From a virus, in the IMG/VR virus record IMGVR_UViG_3300031784_000026, positions 1-64,000 of that record: a DNA stretch of 64,000 nt; one strand, 5' to 3'. Of the stretch, positions 26,665 to 37,680 are shown in pieces; position 1 is the stretch's first letter, and each line of letters opens with the position of its first letter. Below the pieces are notes generated by a model. That model saw only the letters and a list, made by a program, of their open reading frames with translations, was not told where the DNA came from and searched no databases. Both the position numbers and the translations under genes were made by a program.

Positions 26665-26691
26665 TATGCGCCAGACGCATGGCAGGTATGC
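26665..26691 (+). promoter_or_regulatory. 27-bp activator/operator-like element, copy 1
   Basis: The element begins TATGCGCCAGACGCAT, with inverted arms ATGCG/CGCAT, and continues GGCAGGTATGC. It matches the copy at 31251-31277 at 24 of 27 positions. In both cases the element starts exactly 38 bases before the first base of the -35 box. A partial extra copy of the right part (GGCGAGGTATGC) lies at 26657-26668. Identical spacing suggests a bound regulator touching RNA polymerase. Confidence 0.7.
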
Positions 26692-26702
26692 ATAAATAGT
26701 TA

Positions 26703-26731
26703 TTGACTATCCTTTGACTATGTGTTAGTCT
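26703..26731 (+). promoter_or_regulatory. Rightward sigma70-like promoter P1
   Basis: TTGACT (26703-26708) and TAGTCT (26726-26731) with 17 bases between. A second TTGACT starts 11 bases after the first. The promoter drives the first early gene at 26789. Confidence 0.65.
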
Positions 26732-26788: not shown

Positions 26789-27139
26789 ATGAACAGCGAT
26801 AACATCACGCGCGTCGCGCATGACCTTAGCAGACTGCTTGACGAAATGCTTTACGAGATCCGGAAAACAGAGCTTCTGGCAAAGAGCCTAGAGGATCGGA
26901 TCAGGGAGCTAGAGCTGAAGGCGGAGGTTTTATCCTTGGCGGATCGCAAGGGATATAACATGACGGACCTTGGAAACATGGTCGATGAGATATCGAAGGA
27001 AGGTCTGCTCGACGACTACATCAACGAGCGGATCTCAGATCATCCCGACGTCGCAAGCGAAGACAGTATTCGCGAGTGGGCGCGAGACGAAGCTCAAGAG
27101 GTCTTGAGTAACGCGAGCTTCGAGATCACGGTTAACTAA
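26789..27139 (+). CDS. Early coiled-coil protein of unknown function
   Basis: A 116-residue acidic protein, MNSDNITRVAHDLSRLLDEM, helical throughout, with a heptad-like stretch LYEIRKTELLAKSLEDRIRELELKAEVLS and an acidic end rich in Asp and Glu. GGAG lies upstream of the ATG. As the first gene behind P1 it should be expressed very early, when phages make host-takeover proteins; that role is inference. No family recognised. Confidence 0.65.
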   Translation: MNSDNITRVAHDLSRLLDEMLYEIRKTELLAKSLEDRIRELELKAEVLSLADRKGYNMTDLGNMVDEISKEGLLDDYINERISDHPDVASEDSIREWARDEAQEVLSNASFEITVN

Positions 27140-31250: not shown

Positions 31251-31277
31251 CATGCGCCGGTCGCATGGCAGGTATGC
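31251..31277 (+). promoter_or_regulatory. 27-bp activator/operator-like element, copy 2
   Basis: It begins CATGCGCCGGTCGCAT and continues GGCAGGTATGC. It equals copy 1 (26665-26691) except at three positions and has the same 11-base distance to the following -35 box. Confidence 0.7.
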
Positions 31278-31288
31278 GCTTGTGTGCG

Positions 31289-31316
31289 TTGATCCTTTGT
31301 AAACAATCTATATCTT
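31289..31316 (+). promoter_or_regulatory. Rightward promoter P5
   Basis: TTGATC (31289-31294), 16-base spacer, TATCTT (31311-31316), 37 bases before the gene at 31353. It should transcribe the long run of small early genes. Confidence 0.6.
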
Positions 31317-31352: not shown

Positions 31353-31604
31353 ATGGAAATGGCAATGCACCACGAATACAACCTGACCACCAAAGACGGT
31401 CTGATCTTGGGGGTCTGGAACGAGAAGAAAACCCCGTCCCACCTCGACTACTACATTGGCCCGTTCGAGTCAGAAGAGCAGGCCAAGCAATATGCCGACG
31501 ACTACACCGAGTCGTGGCGCTTGGGCTACAACGGACGTGGTCGGGCGGTAAAGCTCAACCATTCCTTCTACGTCGCCTGCACCCGTTGGACATCGTGTGA
31601 CTGA
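31353..31604 (+). CDS. Small protein of unknown function
   Basis: An 83-residue protein, MEMAMHHEYNLTTKDGLILG, then an alpha-beta unit GPFESEEQAKQYADDYTESW and RAVKLNHSFYVACTRW. GAAAGGAAC lies upstream. It is the first gene behind P5. No family recognised. Confidence 0.65.
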   Translation: MEMAMHHEYNLTTKDGLILGVWNEKKTPSHLDYYIGPFESEEQAKQYADDYTESWRLGYNGRGRAVKLNHSFYVACTRWTSCD

Positions 31605-33560: not shown

Positions 33561-33796
33561 CAGAGGACAGAAGCAAATCAAGAAAGCTTCTCGATAAGCT
33601 TGCCGATCTCATGAACGGCTATCTTAATGAGGCAACGACCGATGAAGAGAGGGAGGCCGCAATTGCTACGGGTCTTCAGACTCTTGTGAATTTCGCGATC
33701 CTGTCGTCTTGCACGGCAGGTCTTACAGAAGACGAGATGCACGATGTCGTGCATGAGATTTACTCGATGTACAATGAAGGTAGAGCAGATGACTAA
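33557..33796 (+). CDS. Small acidic helical protein
   Basis: A 79-residue protein, MTEDRSKSRKLLDKLADLMN, with YLNEATTDEEREAAIATGLQTLVNFAI and an acidic tail LTEDEMHDVVHEIYSM. Start and stop overlap neighbours. One copy of the dispersed ACAGAGGACAG motif encodes its first residues. Function unknown. Confidence 0.55.
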   Translation: MTEDRSKSRKLLDKLADLMNGYLNEATTDEEREAAIATGLQTLVNFAILSSCTAGLTEDEMHDVVHEIYSMYNEGRADD

Positions 33797-34178
33797 AGAA
33801 GAATTGGAACGGCTTGTTCGAGCGTATGAGGAAGAACTGGATTATTACCGTAGCTTGTTTTCGGTGGATCAATTCAGCTCTCGCCTCAAGGATTACTTCA
33901 ATCTCACCGATCAGTTGGCGGCGGCGTTGAAGCTTTTCTTGGACTCAGGCCGCGTGTCGAACGAGGCTTTGACAAAGACCGCAGAACTCTTTGGCAAGAA
34001 GGCAGAGCACGATGCAGACTACTCAAAGATTGTTGTCTGGCGCTTGCGTAAGGCTCTCGAAGACTACGGCTTTGTGATCGAGAACAGTTATGGTTGGGGC
34101 TACCGCATGGATCCCGATCAAGTGAAAGAGCTGAAGGATATCGTGAACAACAAGAAGAAAGGGAAGAAGTCTAAATGA
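33789..34178 (+). CDS. Winged-helix DNA-binding protein (OmpR C-domain-like)
   Basis: A 129-residue protein starting MTKEELERLVRAYEEELDYY at 33789. Residues 40-107 resemble the DNA-binding domain of OmpR/PhoB-type regulators: LTDQLAAALKLFLDSGRVSNEAL, DYSKIVVWRLRKALEDYGFV and ENSYGWGYRM, the last matching the conserved wing G-GY. There is no receiver domain; the N-terminus is a short coil instead. It is a candidate phage transcription regulator. The basic tail may add DNA affinity. Confidence 0.7.
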   Translation: MTKEELERLVRAYEEELDYYRSLFSVDQFSSRLKDYFNLTDQLAAALKLFLDSGRVSNEALTKTAELFGKKAEHDADYSKIVVWRLRKALEDYGFVIENSYGWGYRMDPDQVKELKDIVNNKKKGKKSK

Positions 34179-34699
34179 CCGTATCCTACATTGATAACTA
34201 CAAAACGATCCGCAACAAGTTTCGCCCGCCGGTGAGGCCTGTCGTGATTCAAAGGACAGAGGTCAAAGAACAACCCGCACCTGTCGTTGTACTTGAGCCA
34301 GAGCAGATCGAAGAGCTTCCGGAGATCGAGCGTTGGGCGCGATATGGTTCGGGCGACAAGAACTATCGCGACATGATGAGTGACGCGAGAACACTTCGCA
34401 CCGAAGCAGAGAAGCGTGGCATCAGCTTCTATACCAAACTCATGGAAGGTATGCCGACCGTATCGAACCGCCTGAAGCTTGCGACGGTGGTCGTGCTTGA
34501 GGAATACGCGATTGATTGGAAGACACTGTTTGACAAGGACCGGTCTCGTTTCAAGACAGCGATACGGTGGAAGGTCTTTGACGCATTGCGCGAAGAGGGC
34601 CTGTCGTTTTTAGAAATCGCCAGACTTTGTGATGTGGATCACACGTCGGTGATGCACGGTCTTAAGAGAATTAGGGGAGAGTACAATGTCGGACGTTAA
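34175..34699 (+). CDS. DnaA domain IV-like DNA-binding protein
   Basis: A 174-residue protein. Residues 1-50 are a flexible Pro-rich segment. Residues 128-167 (IRWKVFDALREEGLSFLEIARLCDVDHTSVMHGLKRI) match the DnaA C-terminal helix-turn-helix, including the DHT-V-H signature (Asp155, His156, Thr157). There is no AAA+ domain. It may bind an origin or block host DnaA boxes. Its gene overlaps both neighbours, tying it to the winged-helix gene. Confidence 0.7.
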   Translation: MTVSYIDNYKTIRNKFRPPVRPVVIQRTEVKEQPAPVVVLEPEQIEELPEIERWARYGSGDKNYRDMMSDARTLRTEAEKRGISFYTKLMEGMPTVSNRLKLATVVVLEEYAIDWKTLFDKDRSRFKTAIRWKVFDALREEGLSFLEIARLCDVDHTSVMHGLKRIRGEYNVGR

Positions 34700-37233: not shown

Positions 37234-37680
37234 ATGATGTACTACGATCCAAAACAAATGGAGCCCATTGATGATATGGTTTACTCCATTGAACCTGATG
37301 CAGAAACTATTCTTAAGAAAGCTATAGACATTTACAAGGAACAATTCCTTACGGTTAAGGAACAAGAAAAAACAATTCGCGTTCTCAAGGCAACGATTGA
37401 TTTCATAACCAATGAAACCGTAATTTTGAGAAGGAAATACAAGTCCCTTATGGGGGAAAAGGTAGAAACCTTCGAGAAGTCAATTGAAGAGCTTGAGCTT
37501 AGCACTCGTGTTTACAATGTTTTTTTGAACATGAATGTTAAGACTTTAGGAGATGTGTACGTTCTTAAGAAGAGCGAACTTTTACGGCAACCAAACTTTG
37601 GCGTAACGTCTCTTAGGGAAGTGAAAGAACTCATGAAGTTGCATGGGCTAACCGATTGGGGATACGAGGAACAACGGTAA
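37234..37680 (+). CDS. RNA polymerase alpha C-terminal-domain-like protein
   Basis: A 148-residue protein. Residues 22-80 are helical. Residues 84-139 (IEELELSTRVYNVFLNMNV, LGDVYVLKKSELLRQPNFG, SLREVKELMKLHGL) align without gaps to the bacterial alpha CTD. The DNA-contact positions are largely kept: Arg92, Asn95, Gly123, Ser126 and Glu129 correspond to E. coli R265, N268, G296, S299 and E302, while K298 becomes Thr125. It may bind UP-like DNA or regulators in place of host alpha. Inference from sequence pattern only. Confidence 0.7.
   Translation: MMYYDPKQMEPIDDMVYSIEPDAETILKKAIDIYKEQFLTVKEQEKTIRVLKATIDFITNETVILRRKYKSLMGEKVETFEKSIEELELSTRVYNVFLNMNVKTLGDVYVLKKSELLRQPNFGVTSLREVKELMKLHGLTDWGYEEQR

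Follow-up and report, generated by a model that had tools for sequence, protein, structure and literature searches.

Two copies of a 27-bp element in the window, as we call the whole 64-kb stretch of viral DNA analyzed here, most probably represent LysR-type (LTTR) boxes from which an LsrB/VtlR-type activator of the host would drive two rightward promoters in a class I-like manner, as judged from sequence comparisons. The regulator would bind the dyad ATGC-N7-GCAT (T-N11-A, centered at about -66) and also the third half-site ATGC (at about -50) on the same helix face, and would then aid RNA polymerase via the C-terminal domain of its alpha subunit (alpha-CTD), after which transcription of two rightward blocks would start. 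The phage thus probably borrows a host activator for its early genes instead of supplying its own. The sequence-only reading had proposed an activator-type site at a class I position, served by a dedicated phage regulator; the first part is retained here, and the second is not.

Two elements and their promoters

Both elements (Table 1) lie where they had been placed before, agree at 24 of 27 positions and begin 38 bp 5' of a TTGAxx hexamer, as originally described. They are the sole matches at three mismatches or fewer in the window, and no such match occurred in 100 dinucleotide shuffles of it. Each consists of three half-sites with an 11-bp period (ATGC-N7-GCAT-N7-ATGC); a fourth half-site is not evident in the window. 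The first dyad has the T-N11-A layout of a LysR-type box, and relative to the predicted start its GCAT half-site is found at about -62. Counted from the first ATGC, the -35 box is located at +37 and the -10 candidate at +59 for both elements. The predicted element span, reckoned from the -35 position, is -73 to -48, compared with about -72 to -49 for published LsrB/VtlR sites. Since the -35 boxes are near consensus, the sequence does not prove activator dependence. Element 1 is followed by a second TTGACT (26714-26719), exactly 11 bp past the first one and present in the relative L191 too, so that the +37 and +48 registers are both present at promoter 1. The gene behind promoter 2 opens a rightward block leading to replication genes, and we infer an early timing for both blocks. 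A reading of the elements as an RNA motif or riboswitch was rejected, as no Rfam family was found at either one. A literature search for the exact element retrieved no relevant paper.

Table 1. Elements, promoters, first genes and candidate regulators in the window
Feature	Position	Strand	Description
Element 1	26665-26691	+	TATGCGCCAGACGCATGGCAGGTATGC; ATGC 26666-26669, GCAT 26677-26680, ATGC 26688-26691
Promoter 1	26703-26730	+	-35 TTGACT 26703-26708, 16 bp, -10 candidate TTAGTC 26725-26730
First gene behind promoter 1	26789-27139	+	Small coiled-coil-like protein without assigned function; ATG 26789
Element 2	31251-31277	+	CATGCGCCGGTCGCATGGCAGGTATGC; ATGC 31252-31255, GCAT 31263-31266, ATGC 31274-31277
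Promoter 2	31289-31316	+	-35 TTGATC 31289-31294, 16 bp, -10 candidate TATCTT 31311-31316
First gene behind promoter 2	31353-31604	+	Small protein without assigned function
Winged-helix candidate	33789-34178	+	Weak OmpR-type signal, Pfam Trans_reg_C E=0.039, below cut-off
DnaA domain IV-like protein	34175-34699		VDHTSVMHGLKRI; weak, subthreshold Pfam match
Stand-alone RNA polymerase alpha-CTD-like protein	37234-37680	+	Pfam RNA_pol_A_CTD E=4.8e-15

Contig L191 is a near relative of the window with blocks of 72-89% identical DNA, and it carries both elements at the same places. Its element 1 has the +37/+59 register unchanged, and the half-sites of its element 2 are intact although the flanking DNA has diverged. 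The syntenic promoter 2 of L191 (TTTACA, 16 bp, TATGAT) is located at +48/+70, exactly 11 bp further away, and most of the sequence between GTTGATTTG and the start codon is retained, which together indicate an exact one-turn shift.

Occurrence in other phage contigs and in bacterial genomes

The 15-mer core of the element matched 100 IMG/VR stretches. Taken alone it is unspecific, as many of the matches are glycine/methionine-rich coding sequence or have different repeat layouts, and the count was therefore limited to sites with the first half-site. Five of the eight non-redundant sites with a full first half-site have TTG at +37, any other TTG offset occurs in at most one of these eight, and among the sites lacking the first half-site only two out of 48 have TTG at +37. 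By our own arithmetic, with a probability of 1/64 per site, the chance of five out of eight is about 5e-8, uncorrected for the roughly 70 offsets. At one of the remaining three sites (L016), TTGATC stands at +48. The majority of these contigs have no detectable protein in common with the window; L016, L071 and L100 share a terminase or portal with it, and L021 shares two small genes, which in the window both adjoin element 1. The spacing is thus kept in L191 as well as in non-homologous phage contigs, and characterized LsrB/VtlR sites are placed alike, which supports the class I position claimed earlier. As separate observations, a different layout, GCATGGCAGGTATGC-N7-GCATGGC, is common to five phage contigs (L013, L014, L052, L059, and L077), and in each of two others (L080 and L099) several element copies are found within about 50 to 1400 bases.

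Cultured phages gave no counterpart in the searches made: the region from 24 to 35 kb had no match by megablast, element queries of 44-46 bases gave only short chance matches by blastn, and no convincing copy was found in 13 cultured phages checked, including 10 Rhodobacteraceae phages and two Pelagibacter phages, which speaks against the host-activator reading. The DNA polymerases closest to that of the phage (about 50% identity) belong to Pelagibacter phages and a lake phage; the host of the window phage is presumably alphaproteobacterial.

The element is shared with bacterial genomes. A 19-base pattern had nine exact matches in GTDB contigs, five of them from Rhodobacteraceae. At two mismatches or fewer it matched 77 of 295 Rhodobacteraceae genomes (reversed-pattern control: 0) and 26 of 299 genomes of the wider phylum, and thus extends beyond Rhodobacteraceae. 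At 14 of the 29 Rhodobacteraceae loci fetched, and additionally in L153, L159 and L160, the site is found about 110 bp 5' of a gene that we take to be of the DUF6280 type. These loci mostly have a CATAAG-like -10 box at +59, as in the phage, with a poor -35 box. Based on these sequence comparisons, the DUF6280-type gene is likely an unreported regulon member in many Rhodobacteraceae; a literature search on DUF6280 returned no relevant paper. In L160 this gene adjoins efp. Other Rhodobacteraceae sites stand 5' of ruvC-like and DUF1127-like genes (labels assigned by eye).

Sites at the lsrB-type locus

LsrB has been described as an indispensable and likely class I activator of nfeR1, where its site TGCA-N6-GCAT spans -72 to -57 (PMC10746234). 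For abcR1 of S. meliloti, a GCAT-N3-TG-N3-T site at -61 to -49 has been described (PMC8844928), corresponding to the LsrB/VtlR consensus of Brucella and Agrobacterium (PMC7486931), and the gene order in Agrobacterium is trxB, vtlR, abcR1. Compared with this Brucella/Agrobacterium consensus, the window has GCAT-GGC-AG-GTA-T and agrees at six of seven positions (AG for TG); the lsrB-linked sites of Rhodobacteraceae mostly have GG where the consensus has TG. The TGCA-N6-GCAT layout is exact in both elements of L191 and matches at seven of eight positions in those of the window.

The label LsrB/VtlR-type is provisional and is based on trxB synteny in one Rhodospirillales genome and best matches elsewhere. 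Behind trxB of Telmatospirillum (L222) stands an LTTR gene, the product of which has a single best match of 47-49% identity in each of five Rhodobacteraceae, the next match being about 30-34% identical. A gene of this type was found in 59 of 61 Rhodobacteraceae genomes. A site of this kind is located directly behind it at 27 of 33 loci, allowing two mismatches or fewer across the 12 half-site bases, and is followed by TTG at +48 (19 of 27) or +47 (6 of 27). Both in phages and in hosts, the site thus stands at a helix-phased distance 5' of the -35 box, in registers (+37 or +48) that are one turn apart. An sRNA-like unit then follows the lsrB-linked site, for which Rfam SorX was barely over the cut-off at 7 of 12 loci. 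The SorX of R. sphaeroides has been described as lying behind a gene of the OmpR type. The sRNA-like unit behind the lsrB-type gene in L246-L275 has CCTCCCTGTTGGAC and a terminator. The Rfam families ar9 and ar15 gave no matches in 142 alphaproteobacteria, where the controls were likewise silent.

A scoring matrix was built from the 27 lsrB-linked host sites alone, with no phage sites included. In the window this matrix ranks element 1 first (26.3) and element 2 second (22.7); the third-ranking hit (15.2) is element 1 again, read on the opposite strand as a palindrome, and the next independent site scores 12.0. The two elements of L191 also rank first and second in that contig. The maximum in 200 simulated windows was 21.3, below both phage elements. 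Since many bacterial genomes carry the element and a looser form of it accompanies the lsrB-type gene, the binder is likely host-encoded.

Other alphaproteobacterial LTTRs could have the same half-site, and another host regulator of this family with a similar half-site, in place of LsrB/VtlR, is the best surviving alternative, albeit an unlikely one. A T-N11-A layout is shared by LTTRs in general, and the interior of the site differs between GGCAG before DUF6280-type genes (where the search had selected for GGCAG) and mostly aGCGG behind lsrB, so that two related regulators are conceivable. On the other side, most of the Rhodobacteraceae loci tested have the site immediately behind the lsrB-type gene, as at a known VtlR target, and L237 has an exact copy of the phage core behind its LTTR gene.

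Phage-encoded candidates and comparison with known systems

Slightly less probable still is that a regulator encoded by the phage binds the element, be it the winged-helix protein alone or together with the alpha-CTD-like or DnaA-domain-like protein. The winged-helix protein has an OmpR/PhoB-type signal, though weak, and this family has binding units of 11 bp. All three proteins are conserved in the near relatives L103-L105, of which L103 and L104 also carry the element. However, among the loci compared their homologues are confined to these relatives and none was found in the other element-bearing contigs examined, which are partial; the element is frequent in bacterial genomes, where it is linked with an LTTR gene; and its arms alternate in orientation, as opposed to the direct repeats of PhoB. 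On the first two of these grounds, the dedicated phage activator of the sequence-only reading is not supported. For the winged-helix protein, AlphaFold gave a poor model (pLDDT 49.5). The alpha-CTD-like protein has a coiled-coil-like N-terminus and had no match among 50,697 cultured-phage records. It keeps residues aligned by eye to R265, N268, G296 and S299 of E. coli, and DNA binding by this protein is thus possible. We do not favor the winged-helix and alpha-CTD-like proteins as binders of the element, while a role of the latter as a modulator is possible. No relative of the LsrB/VtlR-type LTTR is encoded in the window.

It is least probable that the element is a repressor operator by which a host regulator would keep the phage promoters silent pending a signal: LTTRs are able to repress, OxyR does so at the mom promoter of phage Mu, and the phage -35 boxes are near consensus, but a location 5' of the promoter, at a constant distance that shifts by one helical turn, is typical of activation, and poor -35 boxes are found at the host promoters of this layout (DUF6280).

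For the LsrB/VtlR-type activator of the host, we infer its binding to the element, an activating rather than repressing role and a contact with the alpha-CTD. A further, rather doubtful extension is that the LsrB/VtlR box was acquired convergently by unrelated alphaproteobacterial phages, with a host redox/stress regulator licensing early transcription, and that the alpha-CTD-like protein, which is encoded in the second rightward block, may act as a decoy silencing alpha-CTD-dependent promoters. The proposed activator would connect, in a concrete and testable way, early transcription in phages without a cultured host to a conserved LysR regulator of alphaproteobacteria with known roles in oxidative stress and in the control of symbiosis or virulence. 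For such uncultured phages the site would serve as a host clue, indicating which regulator the host should have. The predicted LsrB regulon of Rhodobacteraceae would comprise the sRNA behind lsrB, the DUF6280-type gene and DUF1127 genes.

The phage site has the T-N11-A dyad with a GCAT arm in common with the LsrB/VtlR boxes of Rhizobiales (abcR1, nfeR1, vrsA, and atu1667), which like the phage site are located at -72 to -49 from the start, 5' of a sigma70 promoter (PMC7486931; PMC8844928; PMC10746234). The likeness extends to the lsrB-type gene of Rhodobacteraceae, which also has an sRNA with such a site behind it. In contrast to the Rhizobiales boxes, the phage site precedes early-type promoters, has an extra third ATGC and has AG for the consensus TG, and its assignment is made at the sequence level. 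Tandem LTTR sites of the OxyR type (ATAG-N7-CTAT-N7-ATAG-N7-CTAT) likewise have half-sites of alternating orientation with an 11-bp period on one face of the helix, 5' of the -35 box, whereas the phage half-site is ATGC/GCAT and three half-sites are clear. At the mom promoter of phage Mu, a late promoter that is repressed, a LysR-type regulator of the host (OxyR) acts on phage transcription, as proposed here; in the window, however, the promoters are rightward and early-type, are likely activated, and have a site that is common to unrelated phage contigs.
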